Position numbers and translations under genes: made by a program
Shown: piece after piece, positions 5,033 through 19,009 of the stretch
How positions within the stretch are numbered: position 1 is the first letter of the stretch
Layout of the letters: each line of letters opens with the position of its first letter
Assembly (NCBI GenBank): GCA_020249045.1
Contig: JADCGK010000229.1
Location: forward strand, 1-36,507
Origin: Azospirillum sp.
GTDB lineage: Bacteria; Pseudomonadota; Alphaproteobacteria; CACIAM-22H2
Direction of reading: 5' to 3'
Length of the DNA stretch: 36,507 nt
The notes under the pieces: model-generated
Database searches by the model: none
What the model was told of the DNA's origin: nothing
The model's input: the letters and a program-made list of their open reading frames with translations, nothing else

Positions 5033-5794
5033 ATGATGTTCCGCGCATTCGCCGTCCTCGCCGTTTGCCTGAGTTGCGCAACGCATGTGCGCGCGCAAAC
5101 GCCGCAAATCACGGTCTACGCGGCCGCCTCGCTCGCGGGCGCGTTCGAAGCGATGGTCGAACCCTTACGCGCACAAGGGATATCGCCGCGGTTCTCGTTC
5201 GCGGCGTCCTCCACGCTCGCCCGGCAGATCGAACAAGGGGCGCTCGCCGACGTTTTCGCATCCGCCGACGAGGAATGGATGGATCATCTCGGCGCGCGCG
5301 GGTTGGTCGCGCCCGGTACGCGCCGCGTTTTCGCGGGCAATCGGCTTGTGTTGATCGCTCCGGCCGACCGGCCACGCGCGGCGGATATCGGCCCCGCGAC
5401 GGATTTCGCGGCGCTGCTGGGGCCGGGCGGGCGGTTGGCCGTGGGCGATCCCGCGCACGTGCCGGCCGGACGCTACGCCCGCCAGGCGTTCGAAGCGCTG
5501 GGCCGATGGTCCGATCTGCGCGGGCGGATCGCCGCAGCCGACAATGTGCGCGCGGCGCTGGCGCTGGTCGAACGCGGCGAGGCGCCGCTGGGCGTGGTCT
5601 ACGCGACCGATGCGCGCGCCTCGGCCCGCGTCGCGGTGGTGGGCATTTTTCCGGCCGATCTTCACCCGCCCATCGTCTACCCCGCGGCCATCGTCGCGCG
5701 GCGCGACGCGCCGGCCGCGCGCGCGTTCCTCGCCTATCTCGAGAGCGCCGACGGCAAGGCGGTTTTGCGCCGCTTCGGTTTCACGACCGATTAG
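5033..5794 (+). CDS. modA: Molybdate ABC transporter substrate-binding protein (orphan ModA)
   Basis: This 253-residue periplasmic binding protein starts with a signal peptide (about residues 1-22, ending VRAQ). It has the ModA hallmarks: ITVYAAASLAGAF, FAASSTLARQIEQGALADVFASAD cut here at its key serines, and DPAHVPAGRYARQA. Family members bind molybdate or tungstate in the periplasm and deliver it to ModB/ModC. No modB or modC is present alongside it. Its last 14 bases overlap the end of the convergent tupA gene. A second in-frame ATG follows immediately (5036) and could equally be the start. It is divergent from the iron-sulfur gene. Without a partner permease it may use one encoded elsewhere. 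Confidence 0.9.
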   Translation: MMFRAFAVLAVCLSCATHVRAQTPQITVYAAASLAGAFEAMVEPLRAQGISPRFSFAASSTLARQIEQGALADVFASADEEWMDHLGARGLVAPGTRRVFAGNRLVLIAPADRPRAADIGPATDFAALLGPGGRLAVGDPAHVPAGRYARQAFEALGRWSDLRGRIAAADNVRAALALVERGEAPLGVVYATDARASARVAVVGIFPADLHPPIVYPAAIVARRDAPAARAFLAYLESADGKAVLRRFGFTTD

Positions 5795-6586
5795 CGGCGG
5801 CCTGGGCGTTCGGGAAGAACAGCTGTTCGCCGCCGATTTTGTAGTCGGCGATCGCGCGCTGGCCGTCCGGCCCGACGAGCCAGGCGATGAACGTGCGGCC
5901 CATCTCGACCCTCACATGCGCGTGGCGCTGCGGATTGACCAGGATCACGCCGTATTGGTTGAACAGCCGCTCGTCGCCTTGCACCAGAACGTCGAGATCG
6001 GCGCGATTGCGGAAGTTCAGCCAAGTGGCGCGGTCGGCCAAAATGTAGGCGTTCATGGCGGCTGCGGTGTTCAGCGCCGGACCCATGCCCTGGCCCACCT
6101 CGCGATACCAGGCGCCGGCGGGCCGCACGCCCGCCTCCTGCCAATAGCGCAGCTCGGCCGCATGCGTGCCGGACCGGTCGCCGCGCGATACGAACGGCGC
6201 GCCGGCGCGCTGCACGCGGCGGAAGGCTTCGGTCACGTCCTTCAGGTCCTTGATCCGCGCGGGATCGGCCTTGGGCCCGATCACCACGAAGTCGTTGTAC
6301 ATGACCTGGATGCGTTCGACGCCGAACCCTTCGGCGACAAAGCGGTCTTCGGCGGGCTTGTCGTGGACGAACACCACGTCCGCGTCGCCGCGCCGGCCCA
6401 CGTCCAGCGCCTGACCCGTGCCCAGCGCCACGATGCGCACCGCGATTCCGGTCGCCGCTTGAAAGCGCGGCAGCAGATGGCCGAAGAGGCCGGATTGGTC
6501 CGTCGAAGTCGTCGACGCCACGGTGATGAAGCGTTCCTGCGCTTGCGCGGGCAGCGCGAACAGGAACAACGCGAGCAGCATCCGGA

Positions 6587-6590
<4 letters not shown>
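5781..6590 (-). CDS. tupA: Tungstate ABC transporter substrate-binding protein
   Basis: This 269-residue protein has a signal peptide (about residues 1-18, ending AQAQ) and the TupA oxyanion-binding motif ASTTSTDQSGL near residues 25-35. Further TupA-type features are VRIVALGTGQALDVGRRGD, DVVFVHDK, and MYNDFVVIGP. TupA proteins bind tungstate with high selectivity over molybdate. It is the last gene of a minus-strand operon tupB-tupC-tupA, overlapping the stop of tupC by four bases (ATGA type). Its 3' end overlaps the end of modA. The substrate assignment follows the family; selectivity cannot be read directly from the sequence. Confidence 0.92.
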
Positions 6591-7278
<688 letters not shown>

Positions 7279-7282
<4 letters not shown>

Positions 7283-7977
7283 CGCTCGGCGGCCCGCTTG
7301 AGTGCCGCGGCGAGCGCGTTCACCGCCAGGATCGTCGCCACGAGCACGAAGCCGAGGCCCAGCGCCAGCGGCAAATCGCCCTTGGACGTTTCGAGCGCGA
7401 TCGCCGTGGTCATCGTGCGCGTGACGCCGTCGATGTTGCCGCCGACGATCATCACGGCGCCCACTTCGGCCGCGGCACGGCCGAAACCGGCGAGCACGAC
7501 GGTGACCAGCGCGAAGCGCGTGTCCCACAGCAAGGTCGCCACGGCTTGCGCGGGGCGCGCGCCCAAAGAGGACAGCAAGTCGCGATATTCGCGCCAGGAA
7601 TCCTCGACGATCTGACGGGCGAGCGCCGCAACGATCGGCAGGATCAGGATCGCTTGCGCGATAACCATCGCCGCGGGCGTGAACAGCAAGCCCAGGGGGC
7701 CCAATGGCCCCGCGCGCGACAGCAACAGGTAAACCAACAAGCCCACCACGACCGGCGGCAGGCCCATCATTGCGTTCAAAACGACGACCACCCCCGACCG
7801 GCCGGGGAAGTGTCGCAGCGCGATGAGCGCCCCCAACGGCAAGCCGATCAACGCCGCGATGGCCACGGCAAGCAGGCTGACCTGCAGCGAAAGGAAAATG
7901 ATCGCGAAAAGCTTCGCGTCGCCCGCGGAAACCAGCCCAGCCGCCGCCGAGAATGCTTGCCAAAGATCGTTGCTCAT
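7279..7977 (-). CDS. tupB: Tungstate ABC transporter permease
   Basis: This 232-residue inner-membrane permease has about five hydrophobic spans and an EAA-type coupling loop, GRAAAEVGAVMIVGGNIDG. MGLPPVVVGLLVYLLLS is typical of ModB/TupB permeases. Of two candidate ATGs, the downstream one (MSNDLWQAF) is preferred, because the alternative 13-residue extension (MTPGLPEST...) is polar and would run toward the divergent regulator. It is first in the tupBCA operon and is transcribed away from the regulator gene at 8072. Confidence 0.9.
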
Positions 7978-8057
7978 CGCCGGTGGGACCGTGCTTTCCG
8001 GCAAACCCGGCGTCAACCCGACGATAGGACAGAACTTGCCGGTTTTTGCTGGAATAT

Positions 8058-8071: not shown

Positions 8072-8953
8072 ATGGCGCCGATGACCCTGCTGGAAGCCGC
8101 GCGGTTCCTTCGTTTGAGCGAGCGTTCGCTCTACGCGCTGGCGCGCGCGCGCAAGGTTCCGTGCGCGCGCATCGGCGGAAAATGGCTGTTCGAGCGTGCG
8201 TTGCTTGAATCCTGGTTGCGCAAGCGCACCGATTTCGGGACGGATGGCGACGCGCTACTTGTCCCGCCGCCGATCCTCGCCGGCAGTCATGATCCGCTGC
8301 TCGAATGGGCGGTGCGCCGGTCGCGCTGTGGGCTCGCGCTCAAGCCCGGCGGATCGCTCGACGGGCTCGATGCGCTGGCGCGCAACGAAGCGCTCGTGGC
8401 CGGGGTGCACGTGGTCGATCCGGACAGCGGCGATTACAATCGCGCGGCGATCGACGACGCGCTGCCCGGACGCGACGTGGTCGCCATCGAATGGGCGGCA
8501 CGCGAACAAGGGTTGATCCTGGCCGCAGGCAACCCGCACGGCATCGCGGATCTGTCCGGCGTCGTCGCCAAGCGCCTGCGCTTCGTGCCGCGCCAGGAAC
8601 AGGCGGGCAGTCACGTGCTGTTCCTGCATTTGCTGAGCGAGGCGGGAATCGCGCTCGACGCGGTGACGCGCGCCGCCGATGCGGCGCTGTCGGAAAGCGA
8701 CGTCGCCGCGTCGATCGTCGAAGGCAAGGCCGACGCCGGCTTCGGCATCCGCGCTTCGGCCGCGCAAGCCGGTCTGGGCTTCGTGCCGCTCGCGCGCGAG
8801 CGTTTCGATCTGGTGCTGCGCCGACGCGACTATTTCGAGCCGCCGATGCAGACCTTGCTCGCCTTCGCCCGCGGCGCGGAATTCGCCGCGCGCGCGGCGC
8901 GGTTGACCGGTTACGACGTGTCCGGCCTCGGCCGCGTCGTCCTCAACCGATGA
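8072..8953 (+). CDS. One-component regulator: excisionase-type HTH plus PBP-like sensor domain
   Basis: This 293-residue cytoplasmic protein starts with a MerR/excisionase-like helix-turn-helix (residues about 1-50: LLEAARFLRLSERSLYALA, then GGKWLFER). The remainder resembles the PBP-like domain found in regulators of molybdate and tungstate genes, with SHDPLLEWAV near its start and EGKADAGFGIRA and YFEPPMQTLL toward the end. It is divergent from tupBCA and upstream of fdhD, so it probably senses an oxyanion such as tungstate or molybdate and controls tup and/or fdh genes. No Shine-Dalgarno precedes the ATG. A second in-frame ATG lies at 8081. Ligand and direction of control are inference. 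Confidence 0.85.
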   Translation: MAPMTLLEAARFLRLSERSLYALARARKVPCARIGGKWLFERALLESWLRKRTDFGTDGDALLVPPPILAGSHDPLLEWAVRRSRCGLALKPGGSLDGLDALARNEALVAGVHVVDPDSGDYNRAAIDDALPGRDVVAIEWAAREQGLILAAGNPHGIADLSGVVAKRLRFVPRQEQAGSHVLFLHLLSEAGIALDAVTRAADAALSESDVAASIVEGKADAGFGIRASAAQAGLGFVPLARERFDLVLRRRDYFEPPMQTLLAFARGAEFAARAARLTGYDVSGLGRVVLNR

Positions 8954-8983: not shown

Positions 8984-9889
8984 ATGCTTCGGGGCCATCT
9001 TCAGCCCGCCATGGCCGACGACTTCCTCCTCAAACCGAACCCGACGGACGCGCGATTGTCCGCGCGCGTGCAAGGCCGCGACCAGACCGGTGCGGCGGTC
9101 GACATCTCCGTCGTCGTCGAACGGCCGCTGACGCTGTTTTTGAACGGCCGCGAGATCGTCACGATGATGACGATCGGCGACTATCCGCAGTATCTGGCGG
9201 TCGGTTATCTGCTGAACCAGAACATGCTCGCGGCGGACGACGAGATCGTCGGCGTCGAATTCGACGCCGAGACCGAAACGGTCGTGGTGCGCACCAAACG
9301 CGTCACCGACTACGAGGAGAAGCTGAAGAAGAAGACGTTGACGTCGGGCTGCGCGCAAGGGACCGCGTTCGGAGATCTGATGGAGCGCTTCGAGACGGTG
9401 ACGCTGCCGACCGACGCGAAGCTGAAGACGTCGTGGCTTTATCGGCTGATGCGCAAGATCAACACCGCGCCGTCGCTCTATCTCGAGGCGGGAGCGATCC
9501 ATGGCTGCGTGCTGTGCCAGGGCGACCGTCCGCTCGTCTATATGGAGGATGTGGGCCGTCACAACGCGGTCGACAAAATCGCCGGCTGGATGTTCCTCGA
9601 GAAATCCGACCCGGCCGACAAGATTTTCTACACGACCGGGCGGCTCACTTCGGAAATGGTCATCAAGACCGTTCGCATGGGCATCCCCATTCTGGTGTCG
9701 CGGTCGGGTTTCACGGCGTGGGGTGTGGATCTCGCGCGCAAGGCGAACCTGACGCTGATCGGGCGCGCGCGCGGCGCGCGGTTCGTGACGCTGGCGGGCG
9801 AGGGGCGCATCGAATACGACGCCGACGCGCGCGCGGTGGCCGAAGAGGACGCGGCCGCGCGCCGCAAGGGAGCGCGCGATGACGAATGA
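8984..9889 (+). CDS. fdhD: Formate dehydrogenase accessory sulfurtransferase
   Basis: FdhD carries sulfur from the cysteine desulfurase to the molybdenum or tungsten bis-MGD cofactor before it is inserted into FDH. Family motifs are visible: [50 protein letters not shown], and [18 protein letters not shown]. The mobile catalytic loop reads [11 protein letters not shown], so only one of the two cysteines found in the CxxC loop of E. coli FdhD remains (C123 by this start). Two further cysteines occur in HGCVLCQGD. The ATG at 8984 gives 301 residues. The ATG at 9011 (MADDFLL) is a realistic alternative, as neither has a strong ribosome site. Its end overlaps the next gene by 11 bases. Confidence 0.95.
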
Positions 9890-11039: not shown

Positions 11040-11623
11040 GCCGCGAGGGCGAATCCCGACTGGGCCGTTGGGCGCGGTTGAAGGCCGAGGCGCGGGCGGC
11101 CGAGCGCGAAGTGCCGCGCGAAGAAAAGCCGGTCGCGCCGATCGCGGCGGTTCCGCCGCCGACCGAGGCGGCGGTGGTCGCGCCGCCCGCCGGCGTGGAT
11201 GCCGCCCCGGCGGCGGCTGAGACCGAACGCGACAAGGCGCCCGAACTGCCGCCCCTCGAAACGCTGACCGAGAAGTCCGATTTCTCTTTGTTCATGCGCG
11301 GCGGCGTTCCCGACGACGCGCGCAAAGCGGCGTTGCGGAAATTGTGGTCGGTCGATTCCCATTTCGCGCAGATCGACATTTCCGAGTGCCATTCGATCGA
11401 CTTCAACGCCGTGCCGACATTCCCCGAGGGTTTGAAGAACACCATCTATCGCGTCGGTTCGGGCATGGTGGAAGCGATCGAGGAGATCGAACGCCTGGAA
11501 CGCGAAGCCGCCGAGAAGGCGCAACTCGCCGCGGCCGGGTCCGATTCGAAGTCGAGCGACGCCGATTCGGCTGAAGATGGACCGGAATCGCCCGCATCCC
11601 CGTCGCCGCCGGCGAAAGCCTGA
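11036..11623 (+). CDS. DUF3306 protein
   Basis: This 195-residue protein starts at a GTG that overlaps the stop of the upstream gene (GTGA) and is preceded by a good AAGGAG site. The N-terminal [13 protein letters not shown] is the typical start of DUF3306 proteins. The conserved core is [31 protein letters not shown] (quoted in parts: SDFSLFM and ALRKLW are the key elements). A Pro/Ala-rich linker lies between the N-terminus and the core, and the C-terminus is acidic and low-complexity. DUF3306 genes regularly follow DUF3305 in FDH loci; biochemical function is unknown. It probably assists FDH assembly. Confidence 0.88.
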
Positions 11624-11707
11624 CGCCGCGCGCCCGCCAAAAAGCCCCGATTTGTATGCCCAAAAAACGTGCTGCACTGCGGAAGTAGCGGAGTACGCCG
11701 GAATTGC

Positions 11708-11737
11708 TTGACGCGCGCGCCGCCAACTTGCTTTACT
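11708..11737 (+). promoter_or_regulatory. Sigma-70-like promoter before the HTH-TorD and FDH genes
   Basis: TTGACG (11708-11713) and TTTACT (11732-11737) are spaced by 18 bases in the 251-bp, locally AT-richer interval between the DUF3306 gene and the HTH-TorD gene. The -35 is close to consensus and the -10 is moderate. The interval also contains an inverted repeat overlapping the -10; nothing else convincing was seen in it. Confidence 0.45.
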
Positions 11738-11743
11738 AAGTTG
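11724..11743. promoter_or_regulatory. 20-bp inverted repeat, candidate operator
   Basis: CAACTT (11724-11729) and AAGTTG (11738-11743) are perfect inverted halves around an 8-bp centre. The centre includes the proposed -10 hexamer, which is the expected position for a repressor site. The closest DNA-binding gene is the HTH-TorD fusion that starts 131 bp downstream, so autoregulation is suggested but not shown. Confidence 0.5.
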
Positions 11744-11874
11744 TTGGTGAGGCCCAATCCCCCTAGAAAATATGGGTTTTTCGCCAACATCGATCCATCG
11801 CCAAGTAAAAAACGACCCCCCGGGATGCGCCTGTTTTCGATCGACCCCACCAATTCGTTTGTAAGGGCCGCGGC

Positions 11875-12717
11875 ATGAACGCCGACGCGTCGCTGCAAGC
11901 ATTGGAGCGCGCCGTGGAACTGGCCGGTGGCCAGTCGGCGCTGGCGCGCGCGATCGGCAAGTCGCAAAGCCATATCTGGCACTGGTTGAAGGTGGCCAAG
12001 CGAGTTCCGGCCGAAGCGGCGGTGGCGATCGAAAAGGCGACCGGCATCCCGCGCCGCGAATTGCGGCCCGACCTTTACGCGCAAAGCGACGACATGACCT
12101 CCCCGAAGATGGAAAACGAGCAGAGCGCCGCCGAGATCGCCGACGAGGATATGCTGCGCGCGCAGCTTTACGCGCTGCTGGGTGAATTGCTGGCCGACAT
12201 TCCGACGGCGCAGACTCTGGCGCGGGTGGGCGAATTGTCGGGCGATCCGGCGACCGAACTCGGCGAATCGGTCAACGCGCTCGCCGCCGTCGCGCGGAAG
12301 ACGACCGCCCAACAGGCGTCGGACGAATATCACGATCTTTTCATCGGCGTGGCCGCGGGCGAGTTGCAGCCTTACGCGTCGGTTTATCTGACCGGCTTCC
12401 TGCACGAGAAGCCGCTTGCCGATCTGCGCGGCACGATGGGCGAGTTGGGCATCGCGCGCGCGGCCAAGCGCGCCGAACCCGAGGACCACATCGCTTCGTT
12501 GTGCGAAATGATGGCGGGCTTGATCGTCGGCGGCTTCGGCGCGCCGGCCGATCTCAAGACTCAGCGCGAATTCTTCGACCGGCACCTCGCCCCGTGGGCG
12601 GGCCGGTTCTTCGAGGATCTGGCCGCGGCGAAGGCCGCGCGCCTCTACATGCCGGTGGGACGCATCGGCAAATTGTTTTTGGAGATCGAACGCGAAGCCT
12701 TCGCGATGGACGCGTGA
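11875..12717 (+). CDS. YdaS/Cro-like DNA-binding domain fused to a TorD/DmsD-family chaperone
   Basis: This 280-residue protein has two parts. Residues about 5-65 form a YdaS/Cro-type helix-turn-helix: AVELAGGQSALARAIGKSQ, then HIWHWLK, and IEKATGIPRRELRPDLYA. After an acidic linker, residues about 92-280 match TorD/DmsD/NarJ chaperones, which bind Tat signal peptides and unfolded molybdoenzymes. EYHDLFIG (151-158), PYASVYLTGF, and the hallmark EPEDHIASLCEMM (201 onward) are visible. A GTAAGG ribosome site lies 8 bases before the ATG. An internal ATG at 12094 could give a chaperone-only form but lacks a clear ribosome site. It lies directly upstream of the Tat mini-protein and fdhA, so FDH is the likely client. 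Coupling of folding to transcription is inference. Confidence 0.88.
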   Translation: MNADASLQALERAVELAGGQSALARAIGKSQSHIWHWLKVAKRVPAEAAVAIEKATGIPRRELRPDLYAQSDDMTSPKMENEQSAAEIADEDMLRAQLYALLGELLADIPTAQTLARVGELSGDPATELGESVNALAAVARKTTAQQASDEYHDLFIGVAAGELQPYASVYLTGFLHEKPLADLRGTMGELGIARAAKRAEPEDHIASLCEMMAGLIVGGFGAPADLKTQREFFDRHLAPWAGRFFEDLAAAKAARLYMPVGRIGKLFLEIEREAFAMDA

Positions 12718-12761: not shown

Positions 12762-12953
12762 ATGGACAAGAACCCCGAAACGAAGGCGGCCAGCCGCCGC
12801 GACTTCTTCAAGAAGACGGGCCTCGGCGTCGCCGTCGCGGCCGGTGCGGCGGGTGCCGCGCCGGGTGCGGCGAAGGCGAGCGCGCCCGCGGCCGATGCCG
12901 CCGGCTACGCCGAGACGGCGCACGTGAAGACCTATTACGAGCTCGCGAAGTAA
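12762..12953 (+). CDS. Small Tat-signal protein of FDH loci
   Basis: This 63-residue protein has a twin-arginine motif SRRDFFKKTGLG (R12, R13), followed by an Ala/Gly-rich hydrophobic stretch and a short hydrophilic tail ending HVKTYYELAK. It matches the small 'formate dehydrogenase region TAT target' proteins that precede FDH catalytic genes. A GGGAGAGGAAGAGG stretch upstream supplies the ribosome site. It ends 13 bases before fdhA, so it is co-translated with it. Function is unknown. It might be a Tat escort or a small extra subunit. Confidence 0.85.
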   Translation: MDKNPETKAASRRDFFKKTGLGVAVAAGAAGAAPGAAKASAPAADAAGYAETAHVKTYYELAK

Positions 12954-12966
12954 GGGAGGCGAGAGC

Positions 12967-15909
12967 ATGTTGACCAAGAAATCCGCCAGCACGGCCGCCA
13001 AGGGCGGTCTTGCCAAGGCGCTCGCGGGCGCCTCGGGTGCCGCGATCGACCGCCGCGCGTTCCTGCGTCGGTCGGGCCTCGCCGTCGGCGGCGTCGCCGC
13101 CGCCGCTTCGCTGAAGCTCGGCACGGTCGAAGCCGCGGGCCGCATGGGTCCGCCGACGAACGCGCCGATCACGCGCGTCAAGAACATGTGCACGCACTGC
13201 TCGGTCGGTTGCACCGTCACCGCCGAGGTGCAGAACGGCGTGTGGACCGGTCAGGAGCCGTCCTTCGAATCGCCGATCAACCTGGGCGCGCACTGCGCCA
13301 AGGGTGCCGCGATCCGCGAGTTGGTCCACGGCGACCGTCGCTTGAAGTATCCGATGAAGCTGCAGAACGGCCGCTGGGTCCGCATGACCTGGGACCAGGC
13401 CGTCAACGAAGTCGGCGATCGCCTGCTCAAGATCCGCGAAACCAGCGGTCCGGACTCGGTCTACTGGCTCGGCTCGGCGAAGTTCACCAACGAGAGCGCG
13501 TATCTTAACCGCAAGTTCGCGGCCTTCTGGGGTACGAACAACATCGACCATCAGGCGCGCATCTGCCACTCGACGACGGTCGCCGGCGTGGCGCAGTCGT
13601 GGGGTTACGGCGCGCAGACCAACTCCTACAACGACATCCAGAAGTCGCGCTCGATCTTCCTGATCGGCGGCAACCCCGCCGAAGCGCATCCGGTGTCGTT
13701 GCTGCACGTCCTGCGCGGCAAGGAGCAGAACCAAGCGCCGATGATCGTGTGCGATCCGCGCTTCACGCGCACGGCCGCGCACGCGACCGAGCACGTGCGC
13801 CTGCGCCCGGGCACGGACATTCCGCTGATCTGGGGCATTCTGTGGCATGCGTTCCAGAACGGCTGGACGGACGAAGACTTCGTCAAGCGCCGCGTCTACG
13901 GTTGGGAGCAGGTCAAGGCCGAAGTCGCCAAGTATCCGCCGGAGGAAGTCGAGCGCATCACCGGCGTTCCGGGCGCGCAGCTGCGCCGCGTGGCGCAGAC
14001 GCTGTGGAACAACCGTCCCTTCACCGTGATTTGGTGCATGGGCGGCACGCAGCATACGGTTGGCTCGGCCAACGTCCGCGCCTACTGCATCCTGAACATG
14101 AACTACGGCACGATCGGCGTTTCGGGCGGCGGCACGAACATCTTCCGCGGCCACTGCAACGTGCAGGGTGCGACCGATCTCGGCCTCGACGTTCTGAACC
14201 TGCCGAACTACTACGGCCTGACCGAGCAAGCGTGGCGCCACTTCGCCCGCGGCTGGGGCGTGTCGTACGAGTACATGCTCGGCCGGTTCAAGTCGAAGGC
14301 CCTGATGGAGATGCCTGGCACGCCGCAGTCGCGCTGGCATGACCTCGTGTTGGAGAACAAGGCCAACATCCAGGGCCAGACCGAAAACGTGAAGGGCATG
14401 GTGTTCTGGGGCCACGGCGCCAACACCCAGACCCGCGGTCCGGACGGCAAGAAGGCGATGGAGAAGGTCGATACGCTCGTCGTCATCGACCCGCATCCGG
14501 TGCAGATCCCGGTCATGGCGGCCGAACGCAAGGACGGCGTCTACCTGCTGCCGGCTTGCACCTCGCTCGAAATGGACGGCAGCCGGACGGCGTCGAACCG
14601 CTCGCTGCAGTGGGGCTACAAGGTCGTCGATCCGATCTTCGAATCGAAGAACGATCTCGAGATCATGTACCTCTTCGCCCGCAAGTTCGGCTTCGCGGAT
14701 GAGATGTTCAAGAACATCAAGGTCGACGGCAACAAGCCGCTCGCCGAAGACGTTCTGCGCGAGATCAACCGGACCTGCTTCACCGCCGGCTACTCGGGCC
14801 AGAGCCCCGAGCGTCTGAAGGCGCACATGGCCAACCAGGAGGTCTTCGACAAGACCAACCTGAAGGCTCTGCGCGCCATTCCGGCGCGCGACGGCATGGC
14901 CGAGATCAAGGCGGGCGAGTTCTACGGTCTGCCCTGGCCGTGCTGGGGCAAGCCCGAGCACCGTCACACCGGCACACACATCCTGTACGACATGTCCACG
15001 CCGGTCGCCGAAGGCGGCGGTTCGTTCCGCGCGCTGTTCGGCGCCGAGTTCCAAGGCCAGTCGCTGCTGGCCGACGGGCTCTACCCGAAGGGCGCCGAGA
15101 TCAAGGACGGTCACCCGCACTTCACCTACGGGATGCTCAAGCGTCTGGGTTGGGACAAGGACCTGACCGAGGCCGAGCGCAACGAGGTCGAGGAGATCGG
15201 GCGGATGGTGTTCGGCGGCAACGTCGACAACGTCACCTGGAACTTCGACACGTCGGGCGGCATCATCCGCGTCGCCATCGCGCATGGTTGCAACCCGAAG
15301 GGCAACGGCCGCGCCCGCGCCCATGTGTGGAACTTCCCCGATCCGGTGCCGACGCACCGCGAACCGCTGTACTCGCCGGACCGCCAGATGGTGGCGAAGT
15401 ATCCGACCTATACGGACCGGATGCTCCATCGCGTGCCGACGCTCTTCAAGTCGATCCAGGACAAGGCGATCGAGAACAACGTCGACCGGCGTTTCCCGAT
15501 CGTGCTGACTTCGGGCCGACTGGTCGAGTACGAGGGCGGCGGCGACGAAACCCGCTCGAACAAGTGGCTTGCCGAACTCCAGCAGGTCTCGTTCGTCGAG
15601 ATCAATCCGGCCGACGCGCGCCGGATCGGCGTCAAGAACAACGACGACGTCTGGCTGTTCGGGCCGGAGAACAACGCCAAGATCAAGATCAAGGCGCTGG
15701 TCACCGAGCGCGTGGGCCGCGGCGTCGCGTGGATGCCGTTCCACTTCGCGGGTCACTGGATGGGCAAGGACATGCGCTCGTCCTACCCGCAAGGCACCGA
15801 CCCCATCGTGCTGGGCGAAGCCGTGAACACCGCGACGACCTACGGCTACGACCCGGTCACGCAAATGCAGGAAACCAAGACCACCTTGTGCCGTATCGAG
15901 AAGGCCTAA
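12967..15909 (+). CDS. fdhA: Formate dehydrogenase catalytic (alpha) subunit
   Basis: This 980-residue Mo/W-bis-MGD enzyme oxidises formate to CO2. A Tat motif DRRAFLRRSG (R29, R30) shows export of the folded enzyme. A 4Fe-4S site is formed by C75, C78, C82 and C110. The metal ligand is C200 in HQARICHSTTVAG, followed by the conserved H201; the codon is TGC, so this is a cysteine, not a selenocysteine, enzyme. The late region AHGCNPKGNGRARAHVWNF and the C-terminal molybdopterin-binding domain (LTSGRLVEYEGGGDETRSN, shown in its key residues) are typical. Length is normal for membrane-attached FDHs. A GGGAGGCGAGAG site precedes the ATG. fdhB follows after 19 bases. Confidence 0.97.
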   Translation: MLTKKSASTAAKGGLAKALAGASGAAIDRRAFLRRSGLAVGGVAAAASLKLGTVEAAGRMGPPTNAPITRVKNMCTHCSVGCTVTAEVQNGVWTGQEPSFESPINLGAHCAKGAAIRELVHGDRRLKYPMKLQNGRWVRMTWDQAVNEVGDRLLKIRETSGPDSVYWLGSAKFTNESAYLNRKFAAFWGTNNIDHQARICHSTTVAGVAQSWGYGAQTNSYNDIQKSRSIFLIGGNPAEAHPVSLLHVLRGKEQNQAPMIVCDPRFTRTAAHATEHVRLRPGTDIPLIWGILWHAFQNGWTDEDFVKRRVYGWEQVKAEVAKYPPEEVERITGVPGAQLRRVAQTLWNNRPFTVIWCMGGTQHTVGSANVRAYCILNMNYGTIGVSGGGTNIFRGHCNVQGATDLGLDVLNLPNYYGLTEQAWRHFARGWGVSYEYMLGRFKSKALMEMPGTPQSRWHDLVLENKANIQGQTENVKGMVFWGHGANTQTRGPDGKKAMEKVDTLVVIDPHPVQIPVMAAERKDGVYLLPACTSLEMDGSRTASNRSLQWGYKVVDPIFESKNDLEIMYLFARKFGFADEMFKNIKVDGNKPLAEDVLREINRTCFTAGYSGQSPERLKAHMANQEVFDKTNLKALRAIPARDGMAEIKAGEFYGLPWPCWGKPEHRHTGTHILYDMSTPVAEGGGSFRALFGAEFQGQSLLADGLYPKGAEIKDGHPHFTYGMLKRLGWDKDLTEAERNEVEEIGRMVFGGNVDNVTWNFDTSGGIIRVAIAHGCNPKGNGRARAHVWNFPDPVPTHREPLYSPDRQMVAKYPTYTDRMLHRVPTLFKSIQDKAIENNVDRRFPIVLTSGRLVEYEGGGDETRSNKWLAELQQVSFVEINPADARRIGVKNNDDVWLFGPENNAKIKIKALVTERVGRGVAWMPFHFAGHWMGKDMRSSYPQGTDPIVLGEAVNTATTYGYDPVTQMQETKTTLCRIEKA

Positions 15910-15928: not shown

Positions 15929-16525
15929 ATGGCTCGTATGAAGTTCCTCCTCGACGCCGAGCGCTGCATCGAATGCAACGCCTGCGTCACCGCGTGCAAA
16001 AACGAACACGAGGTTCCCTGGGGCATCAACCGCCGGCGCGTCGTCACGCTGAACGACGGCAAGCCGGGTGAACGGTCGATCTCCATGGCGTGCATGCACT
16101 GCTCGGACGCGCCGTGCATGGCCGTCTGCCCGGTCGACTGCTTCTACAAGACCGCCGAAGGCGTGGTCCTGCACTCCAAGGACCTTTGCATCGGTTGCGG
16201 CTACTGCTTCTACGCGTGCCCGTTCGGCGCGCCGCAGTACCCGCAAGCGGGCAATTTCGGCAGCCGCGGCAAGATGGACAAGTGCACCTTCTGCGCGGGC
16301 GGTCCGGAACCCTCGAACACGGCGCAGTCGTTCCAGAAGTACGGCCGCAACCGTCTGGCCGAGGGCAAGTTGCCGCTGTGCGCGGAAATGTGCTCGACCA
16401 AGGCGCTGCTGGCCGGCGACGGCGACGTGATCGCGGGCATCTACCGCGAACGCGTGGTCACGCGCGGCTACGGCTCCGGCGCTTGGGGCTGGGCGACCGC
16501 CTACGGCGACGGCGTCCGGTCCTGA
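15929..16525 (+). CDS. fdhB: Formate dehydrogenase iron-sulfur (beta) subunit
   Basis: This 198-residue protein carries electrons from the catalytic subunit toward the cytochrome b subunit through four 4Fe-4S clusters. Cysteine groups are C13/16/19/23, C55/58/63/67, C87/90/93/97 and C119/122/151/155. Motifs such as CIECNACVTAC and CIGCGYCFYACPFGAPQ are characteristic. No signal peptide is present, so it is expected to be exported with FdhA as a complex. A GGATAGGGAG site precedes the ATG. Unlike E. coli FdnH it has no C-terminal membrane helix. Two strong hairpins follow it before the membrane genes. Confidence 0.96.
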   Translation: MARMKFLLDAERCIECNACVTACKNEHEVPWGINRRRVVTLNDGKPGERSISMACMHCSDAPCMAVCPVDCFYKTAEGVVLHSKDLCIGCGYCFYACPFGAPQYPQAGNFGSRGKMDKCTFCAGGPEPSNTAQSFQKYGRNRLAEGKLPLCAEMCSTKALLAGDGDVIAGIYRERVVTRGYGSGAWGWATAYGDGVRS

Positions 16526-16656: not shown

Positions 16657-16860
16657 ATGTCGCAAGGCAATCGTACGATCCTCTGGTTCCTGTTCGGCCT
16701 TCTCCTCGTCACCGCCGTCGGCTTTTCGGCGCGCGACGCGGGCAAGCCCGACGGCCAAAAGGGCAGCTATCTGGGCCGCGAGGTCCGGCAGGATCAGCCC
16801 GTTCCGGCGCCCGCGCGCGATGCGCTCGCCGGTCGCGCCGAAGCCGGCCAGCGTTTCTGA
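16657..16860 (+). CDS. Small single-span membrane protein of the FDH operon
   Basis: This 67-residue protein has an N-terminal hydrophobic helix (about residues 7-24, ILWFLFGLLLVTAVGF) and a hydrophilic tail rich in Gly, Asp and Arg (SYLGREVRQDQPVP). The start is chosen at MSQGNR because an AAGGAA site precedes it; an upstream in-frame ATG would add hairpin-derived sequence. It lies 40 bases before the cytochrome b subunit gene. No family is recognised with confidence. Its place suggests an accessory or assembly subunit of the membrane part of FDH. Confidence 0.75.
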   Translation: MSQGNRTILWFLFGLLLVTAVGFSARDAGKPDGQKGSYLGREVRQDQPVPAPARDALAGRAEAGQRF

Positions 16861-16900
16861 TCCTTCGCGCCCCCCGAACCAAGCCACGGGAGTTTTCCCA

Positions 16901-17989
16901 ATGACCATTTTCGCTTCCCTTCGCGGTGCGGCCCTCGCGGCCCTCGCGGTCGTCTGCGCCGCCGCTTTGTCGCCCGCTTCGGCGCAGGCGCCGGCCGCCC
17001 CCGCGCCGGTCCGTTCTGAGGCCGCGCCCGCGTTCTCCGCGCCGGCGAACGAGCGCATCCCGCCCGCCTTCACGGGCACCTATCAATCGCCCACGCAGCG
17101 TCCGGACGTCGGCCTGATGGCCAACGACACCGAATTGCTGCGCGCGCTGCTGCCGACGCGCGGTCAGGTCACGATCCCCGACCAGAAGCTCGCCACGCTG
17201 ATCCAGCCGGCGGGCCGCGACTGGCGCGAGACGATCAAGGGCCCGATCCGCGTTTGGGGTTCGTGGCTGATCCTCGGCATGTGCTGCGTTCTGATCGCCT
17301 TCTATCTGCTGCGCGGCAAGATCATGATCGACTCGGGCATGTCGGGCCGAACGATCGAACGCTTCAACCCGTTCGAGCGTTTCATCCATTGGATGACGGC
17401 GGGCTCGTTCGTCGTGCTCGCGTTGTCGGGTCTGAACATCACCTACGGCCGCTACGTGCTGCTGCCGTTGTTGGGGCCCGAGGCGTTCACTTCGCTGTCG
17501 ATCGCCTTCAAGTACGCGCACAACTACCTCGCCTTCCCGTTCATGCTGGGCGTGCTGTTGATGCTGGTCACCTGGATCCGCTTCAACATTCCCAGCAAGG
17601 TCGATCTGCAGTGGATCGCGGTCGGCGGCGGGCTGTTCAGCAAGGGCGTCCATCCGCCGGCGGACAAGTTCAACGCGGGCCAGAAGGTCATTTTCTGGTC
17701 GGTCGTCGCGGGCGGCGTGGCGCTGTCGGTCACCGGCGTGTGGCTGATGTTCCCGTTCTACTTCGGGGACGTGGCCTCCATGCAGCTGATGCAGGTGATC
17801 CACGCGATCGTGTCGCTGATCCTGATCGCGGTCGTGATCGCGCACATCTACATCGGCTCGATCGGCATGGAACAGGCGTTCGACGCCATGTCCACCGGTC
17901 AGGTCGACGAGAACTGGGCCAAAGAGCACCACGGCATTTGGCTCGCCAAGGTCAAGGGCACGCCGATGCCCAAGATGGGCCACGACTGA
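16901..17989 (+). CDS. fdhC: Formate dehydrogenase cytochrome b (gamma) subunit
   Basis: This 362-residue membrane protein anchors the FDH complex and passes electrons to quinone. It has an N-terminal signal peptide (about residues 1-29, ending SASAQA), a periplasmic Pro/Ala-rich segment of roughly 80 residues, and then transmembrane helices of the cytochrome b556 type. Candidate haem-ligand histidines are H163 (RFIHWMTAG), H207 (YAHNYLAF), H301 (VIHAIVSL) and H315 (IAHIYIGS). The helices fit the FdnI/FdhC family, while the extended N-terminus is the longer form found in many alphaproteobacteria. A CGGGAG site precedes the ATG. A strong terminator follows the stop. Confidence 0.94.
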   Translation: MTIFASLRGAALAALAVVCAAALSPASAQAPAAPAPVRSEAAPAFSAPANERIPPAFTGTYQSPTQRPDVGLMANDTELLRALLPTRGQVTIPDQKLATLIQPAGRDWRETIKGPIRVWGSWLILGMCCVLIAFYLLRGKIMIDSGMSGRTIERFNPFERFIHWMTAGSFVVLALSGLNITYGRYVLLPLLGPEAFTSLSIAFKYAHNYLAFPFMLGVLLMLVTWIRFNIPSKVDLQWIAVGGGLFSKGVHPPADKFNAGQKVIFWSVVAGGVALSVTGVWLMFPFYFGDVASMQLMQVIHAIVSLILIAVVIAHIYIGSIGMEQAFDAMSTGQVDENWAKEHHGIWLAKVKGTPMPKMGHD

Positions 17990-18058: not shown

Positions 18059-19009
18059 ATGATCCGCCGCCTTCTCTTCGCGACGCTCCTCGTGCTTTCC
18101 GCACCGGCCGCGGCCGAGTTGCAGGGGCACGGCGCCATGGTCAACGCGGTGGCCGTGTCGCCCGATGGACGGCGCGCGTTGACCGGATCGTGGGACTATT
18201 CGGTGCGGCTGTGGGATCTGGCCGCGCATAAGGAACTCAAAGCCCTCGAAGAGCACACCCAAAGCGTCAATGCCGTCGCGTTCCTGCCCGACGGCCGGCG
18301 CGGCATGTCGGGTTCTTTCGACGGCACGATTCTTCTCTGGGATCTCGAGACCGGAAAGGTCGAGCGCAAATTCGAAGGCCATCGGGCGAGCGTGGCGGGG
18401 CTTGCCGTGTCGCGCGACGGACGGCGCGCGTTCTCGGCCAGTTGGGACCGCACGCTGCGCCTGTGGGACGTCGCCGCGGGCCGTTCGTTGCGCGTGTTCG
18501 AAGGGCACACGCAGAACGTCAACGCCGCGCTGATCCTGCCCGACGGCCGGAGCGGCGTTTCGGCGAGCTACGATCTCACGATCCGGTTGTGGAACCTCGA
18601 AACCGGCGAGGCGCTCGGCGTTCTCGAAGGACACACGAATTCGGTCAACGCGCTGGCGATTTCGGCCGACGGGAAAATCCTCGCCTCGGGCTCGACCGAC
18701 GGCACGGTGCGGCTGTGGGATCTCGCCGCGCGGACGGAACTGCGCGTGCTCGAAGGCCATCGCGGTTTCGTCACCTCGGTCGCGCTGACACCCGACGGCA
18801 AGCGTCTGCTTTCCGGCGGCGGGGACCGCACGTTCCGGCTGTGGGACGCGGAGACGGGCCGCCAACTGCGCAACATGCAGGGGCATCGGCGGCCGGTCTG
18901 GAGCGTGGCGTTCTCGCCCGACGGGCGGCGCGGCCTATCGGCGGGCTACGACGAAGTCGTGAAAATCTGGGACCTCGCCACGGGCGAGGAAGTTCCGGCG
19001 CCGCAATAG
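18059..19009 (+). CDS. Exported seven-bladed WD40-repeat protein
   Basis: This 316-residue protein begins with a signal peptide (about residues 1-20, ending APAAA). It then has seven WD40 repeats at a 42-residue period, with Gly-His or Glu-His starts at about 23, 65, 107, 149, 191, 233 and 275 and WD/WN ends (RLWDLAA, LLWDLET, RLWDVAA, RLWNLET and so on). Seven repeats would close one beta-propeller in the periplasm, a likely protein-interaction platform. There is no haem-binding CXXCH. It starts just 19 bases after the FDH terminator, without a clear ribosome site, so its promoter may lie within or upstream of that terminator. Partner and function are unknown. Some WD40 domains are fused to cytochromes, but not this one. 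Confidence 0.88.
   Translation: MIRRLLFATLLVLSAPAAAELQGHGAMVNAVAVSPDGRRALTGSWDYSVRLWDLAAHKELKALEEHTQSVNAVAFLPDGRRGMSGSFDGTILLWDLETGKVERKFEGHRASVAGLAVSRDGRRAFSASWDRTLRLWDVAAGRSLRVFEGHTQNVNAALILPDGRSGVSASYDLTIRLWNLETGEALGVLEGHTNSVNALAISADGKILASGSTDGTVRLWDLAARTELRVLEGHRGFVTSVALTPDGKRLLSGGGDRTFRLWDAETGRQLRNMQGHRRPVWSVAFSPDGRRGLSAGYDEVVKIWDLATGEEVPAPQ

Follow-up and report, generated by a model that had tools for sequence, protein, structure and literature searches.

The window analysed here, a stretch of 36,507 nucleotides that makes up contig JADCGK010000229.1 of an Azospirillum sp. assembly (GCA_020249045.1), contains a gene that raises the question of why a chaperone of formate dehydrogenase (FDH) should begin with a DNA-binding domain, and whether such a protein could control the operon in which it is encoded. 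The gene (11875-12717, + strand) is a single open frame of 280 codons without interruption, and its 280-aa product joins a YdaS/Cro-type helix-turn-helix (HTH; 11902-12084, +, residues 10-70, with the recognition helix SQSHIWHW) to a TorD/DmsD/Nitrate_red_del chaperone domain (12142-12714, +). This domain composition had been read from the open frame in a first-pass annotation, and Pfam, AlphaFold2 and fused homologues all agree with it. Residues 10-70 match YdaS_toxin (PF15943; E 4e-19, 68.6 bits against a gathering threshold of 30) and residues 126-247 match Nitrate_red_del (PF02613; E 3e-30, 105.6 bits against 22.2). The AlphaFold2 model, for which an alignment of 57 sequences was supplied, shows a confident HTH (residues 2-63) and a confident all-helical TorD-type domain (residues 90-280), with pLDDT mostly above 87, separated by a poorly ordered, low-confidence linker (about residues 64-89) that varies among the fusions. 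Foldseek matched the chaperone half to YcdY and DmsD (E 1e-5 to 2e-4) and the HTH half to the Xfaso1 Cro protein (3bd1; 1.0 Å rmsd, 42% identity), and a profile search against PDB sequences concurred, with phage Cro proteins as the closest solved HTH structures. The "toxin" in the name of PF15943 is a historical label; the HTH found here is fused to TorD inside an fdh operon, whereas a toxin-antitoxin pair requires a stand-alone toxin beside its antitoxin.

The chaperone half scored 50 bits with the NCBIfam equivalog models for DmsD and TorD, under their cut-offs of 132 and 162, which places it by sequence in an FDH-linked branch distinct from TorD or DmsD proper. The EPEDHI motif lies at residues 201-206, and the EPEDH motif is retained in the alignment of the fusions, single changes aside; FdhA carries a twin-arginine signal, and the TorD domain may bind a Tat signal peptide or the apo-enzyme. 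An assembly artefact was discarded as the source of the fusion, given that six further species of the genus and members of many other families have full-length fused homologues. The possibility that the two domains are translated separately was likewise rejected, the linker codons M74 and M79 having no obvious Shine-Dalgarno sequence and not being conserved. In eight close pairs the dN/dS ratio of the HTH was 0.02-0.28 and the linker was under less constraint in most pairs, which indicates from these comparisons that the HTH is intact and under purifying selection.

The fusion gene is directly followed by a gene for a formate_TAT mini-protein (12762-12953, +; 63 aa, twin-arginine, matching TIGR02811 with 1.5e-11, just below the cut-off), and then by fdhA, encoding the formate dehydrogenase alpha subunit with its Tat signal, the presumed client of the chaperone (12967-15909, +), fdhB, encoding an FDH3 beta subunit (15929-16525, +; FDH3_beta above cut-off), and fdhC, encoding the gamma subunit/cytochrome b561 (16820-17989, +). 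The mini-protein, also present in the operons with an HTH-less chaperone, may be a TorD ligand. A secreted WD40-repeat protein (18059-19009) closes the operon and is kept in most relatives. Upstream of the fusion gene there are a DUF3306 gene, a MobA-like region, fdhD for the FDH cofactor sulfurtransferase (8984-9889, +), and a gene (8075-8950, +) combining an excisionase-type HTH_17 domain with a PBP_like/molybdopterin-biosynthesis-like protein, divergent from tupB-tupC-tupA-like genes for a tungstate ABC importer (5781-8016, -). TupA was the sole model matching its gene and TupB came second after a general permease model, and because both matches are below the equivalog cut-offs the tungstate specificity of these window genes is presumptive. 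In Methylorubrum extorquens, a related alphaproteobacterium, FDH maturation genes and tupBCA have been described as belonging together, with TorD and an HTH unmentioned (PMC13197769).

The chaperone itself was found in 56 of 385 genomes of the class, and in roughly ten of these 56 it was fused to the HTH; targeted searches recovered many further fusions, Bradyrhizobium among them. No fusion was detected in 32 TorD-bearing genomes outside the class, and no fused or adjacent HTH at 80 chaperone loci in public records of Alphaproteobacteria; most alphaproteobacterial relatives have a chaperone without HTH in the same FDH slot. At every locus examined where the contig shows it, the fusion stands directly upstream of fdhA, which answers a check suggested in the first-pass annotation; HTH-less TorD orthologues, however, occupy the same place, so the position is no proof by itself. 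Two recognition helices could be distinguished: type 1, QxxVWHW with four extra residues, occurs in family f94 and throughout the genus to which the window belongs, the window included, and type 2, QPSVSxW, in the other fusions. In the TorD tree (143 rows) the type-2 fusions form one group (98/86) and type 1 appears in two places; the HTH state requires a minimum of three changes, and an AU test did not reject a single origin of type 1 (p 0.43). It is likely from the tree that the HTH was fused independently more than once, repeated loss being the alternative, and fusion together with operator apparently arose at least twice. Separate upstream HTH genes considered in L044, L092, L098, L103 and L105 were dismissed, the alignments showing that the tblastn extensions of TorD ran through stop codons by chance. 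One Bradyrhizobium-like genome (G543, contig 97) carries a fused HTH-TorD as well as a separate HTH-less TorD, probably representing two FDH operons.

Aligned upstream regions of the genus contain a conserved palindrome, first seen as AC(A/C)AA-N4-TTTGT right before the start codon. Palindrome A (ACAAA-N4-TTTGT) was found within one mismatch upstream of 17 of 17 type-1 fusions, that is, all nine first examined, including those from the distant f94, and all eight held-out f94 members. It is missing from the corresponding place in type-2 fusions, which have CATAG-N7-CTATG (palindrome B) in common instead; its core, ATAG-N7-CTAT, lies upstream of 33 of 35 type-2 fusions (9/9 in the discovery set and 24/26 held out, L213 and L289 included), the full CATAG-N7-CTATG was present within one mismatch in 21 of 23 held-out loci, and no B site was found at the fusions of G454 and G1019, the genomes behind all these counts being related and hence not independent samples. 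The arms of the palindromes are constant and the spacer letters variable. About 120 upstream regions of HTH-less controls gave one A with one mismatch and no B (80 regions with one A and no B, and 41 more with neither, a few genomes maybe being in both sets), and the frequencies expected by chance within 150 bp are about 1-2% per locus for A and 0.1-0.9% for B. In G002, G003 and G008 the exact A occurs genome-wide solely at this promoter. Nine exact A or B matches elsewhere in genomes were examined, and they were set aside as chance, most being intragenic and none lying at a recognisable Mo/W promoter.

As judged from these sites, each HTH type is matched to its own palindrome at the promoter of the fdh operon, and it is very probable that the fusion protein binds its own promoter specifically through the predicted operators. 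The first-pass proposal that HTH-TorD regulates the fdh promoter is well supported by these comparisons, in that the palindromes accompany fusions and not chaperone-only loci and change with the type of HTH. The predicted operator of the window, ACCAATTCGTTTGT (11849-11862), has one mismatch to A, ends 12 bp before the start codon, and is supported mainly by its aligned position, the copy being conserved in the genus; no exact A was found anywhere in the window's own genome. A half-site, TTTGTATG (11652-11659, +), occupies the position (about -260) of a second operator that is complete in four sister species. Besides, a GTGCTGCACTGCGG-like motif at 11670-11683 is also found upstream in L155, L159, L161 and L164, and the sisters have fuller CTGC-N3-GCAG palindromes, which we take to resemble a PhaR-type site.

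The arrangement of these sites bears on the sign of regulation. A consensus scan called no consensus sigma-70 promoter at 11600-11900; a possible promoter at 11707-11737 (+) consists of a CTTGAC invariant in six members of the genus and TTTACT 18 bp on, and in the genus this invariant CTTGAC falls between the distal and the proximal operator. By eye, the A site in f94 lies between a -35-like TTGNNN and a TA-type -10-like hexamer; in several type-2 sequences, too, the site falls between a -35-like and a -10-like hexamer, and several have TTGAC immediately upstream. Such positions suggest repression by occlusion, and we consider it likely that the fusion protein is a repressor.

Further support for a regulon comes from the tungstate importer. 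In genus g181 of f94, palindrome A precedes tupB, the permease gene of the importer, at positions -82 to -86 in all seven genomes having both tupB and the fusion, and in family f26 two B-type palindromes in tandem precede tupB in both of the two genomes. A regulon is thus the more credible because unrelated operators, in unrelated lineages, have come to stand at one and the same additional gene. The sister genus g402 of f94 does not have A at tupB, neither palindrome was found there in any of the remaining 21 fused genomes for which tupB loci were available, the genus of the window included, and the window tup genes have no A within one mismatch; where the tupB operator is missing, the HTH_17 and PBP_like protein possibly serves as the local regulator responding to tungstate or molybdate. 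Of 22 tupB loci in fusion-less genomes, a single one, that of the sister genome G702, for which the search gave no fusion, retains a degraded A in the corresponding position. The tupB palindromes (L238, L249-L252, L256 and L259; about 80 bp upstream) are longer than the fdh operators, extending as perfect palindromes over roughly 32-36 bp with compensatory arm changes, and because of this unusual length and the matched changes those of f94 could be RNA hairpins instead of DNA operators. In G057 a B site occurs in a mobB-moeA/mobA-fdhD cluster; this palindrome (L211:4009-4025) lies between mobA and a 60-residue ORF beginning MKAFLASMAVAVVLAIG, which may be a further target.

Several readings of the protein were weighed against these data. 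In the one that we favour, a dimer of HTH-TorD would bind the palindrome and repress, while its TorD domain would bind the FdhA Tat signal peptide or apo-FdhA, the two kinds of binding being mutually exclusive. Free chaperone would then repress fdh, plus the tungstate importer where a site exists, and chaperone held by cofactor-less FdhA would let go of the operators, so that more chaperone and metal uptake would follow until the enzyme is filled. Sensing of apo-FDH gains plausibility from the same operators at the tungstate-importer promoter in two lineages. We regard the chances as even that the protein is an autoregulating chaperone-transcription factor with an input of some kind from the TorD domain, in either polarity, and a coupling of DNA regulation specifically to client occupancy of that domain is as easily true as false. 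Granted such a coupling, release upon occupancy is the moderately favoured polarity, and the sole ground for this is that it would make little sense to stop metal import while apo-enzyme builds up.

The strongest competitor, though still a somewhat unlikely one, is a plain autoregulator, in which the HTH represses according to the total dose of the fusion, TorD acts only as a chaperone, and the fusion ties the regulator to the chaperone dose. This accounts for the conservation of the HTH and for the operators, and the flexible, variable linker is by itself no hint of allostery; however, the presence of the same operators at the tungstate importer and the constancy of an FDH chaperone as fusion partner are left unexplained. 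We hold it improbable that the polarity is the opposite one, with the client-bound form repressing as a negative feedback that stops FdhA synthesis when maturation lags. Such a circuit is compatible with the operators and avoids positive feedback on fdhA, which shares the operon, but in f94 and f26 it would turn the tungstate importer off as apo-enzyme builds up.

Very unlikely, in our estimation, is a separate metal-responsive regulator, such as a tungstate or molybdate sensor, that binds the palindromes and makes the fused HTH incidental: palindromes occur at tupB, which is a typical target of metal sensors, and the HTH_17 and PBP_like protein of the window adjoins tup, yet across many families the palindrome depends on whether an HTH is fused and of which type, and HTH-less relatives lack it even when FDH and tup are both present. 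That the Cro domain is a prophage-derived relic, fused by accident and without present function, is scarcely credible: phage Cro proteins are indeed the nearest relatives of known structure, but strong purifying selection and matched operators speak against it.

HTH-TorD shares features with several known systems. Chaperones of the TorD/DmsD/NarJ family (PF02613) share with it the fold (DmsD, YcdY), the EPEDH-type motif and the link to Tat-exported molybdo- or tungsto-enzymes, and to our knowledge none of the described members carries a DNA-binding domain. Cro/YdaS repressors (PF15943; Xfaso1 Cro, 3bd1) have the HTH and the short palindromic operators at their own promoter that are predicted here; unlike HTH-TorD, they are phage or prophage switch proteins with no fused chaperone and no tie to metabolic operons. 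In type III secretion, chaperone-regulators such as SicA/InvF and IpgC/MxiE report chaperone occupancy to transcription, a likeness in logic only, since these are two separate proteins that work by co-activation and respond to secretion effectors, whereas HTH-TorD contains chaperone and DNA-binding domain in one polypeptide. RRNPP regulators (ComR, PlcR, Rgg, PrgX) have the same layout of an N-terminal HTH and a C-terminal helical peptide-binding domain, although that domain is TPR-like and its ligand an imported pheromone; the C-terminal half of the fusion is a TorD domain instead, and the Foldseek matches to them were weak, non-significant and reflect the common layout. In the heat-shock titration circuits HrcA-GroE and HspR-DnaK, chaperone load sets repressor activity, but these involve general chaperones and a separate repressor, in contrast to the enzyme-specific, fused HTH-TorD. 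No description of HTH-TorD fusions or of TorD-linked repressors was found in the open-access literature, the part that could be searched, and HTH-TorD would be a one-component regulator with, as far as found, a sensor half of a new kind.

The HTH-TorD family is widespread in Alphaproteobacteria, and its Bradyrhizobium members currently bear no annotation beyond "molecular chaperone TorD family protein". The fusion probably acts as a regulator too, one that links FDH assembly to metal supply. More specifically, and only tentatively, at somewhat less than even confidence, we propose that it gauges the FDH awaiting its tungsto- or molybdo-cofactor and tunes fdh expression and tungstate import, reading unfilled enzyme and not free metal. 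The metal-cofactor regulators known to us sense metal or free cofactor; a chaperone-repressor would sense demand, in the form of client enzyme still awaiting maturation. With the palindromes at hand the idea of a regulator is directly testable, and, should it hold, protein quality control and gene control would be united in one polypeptide.
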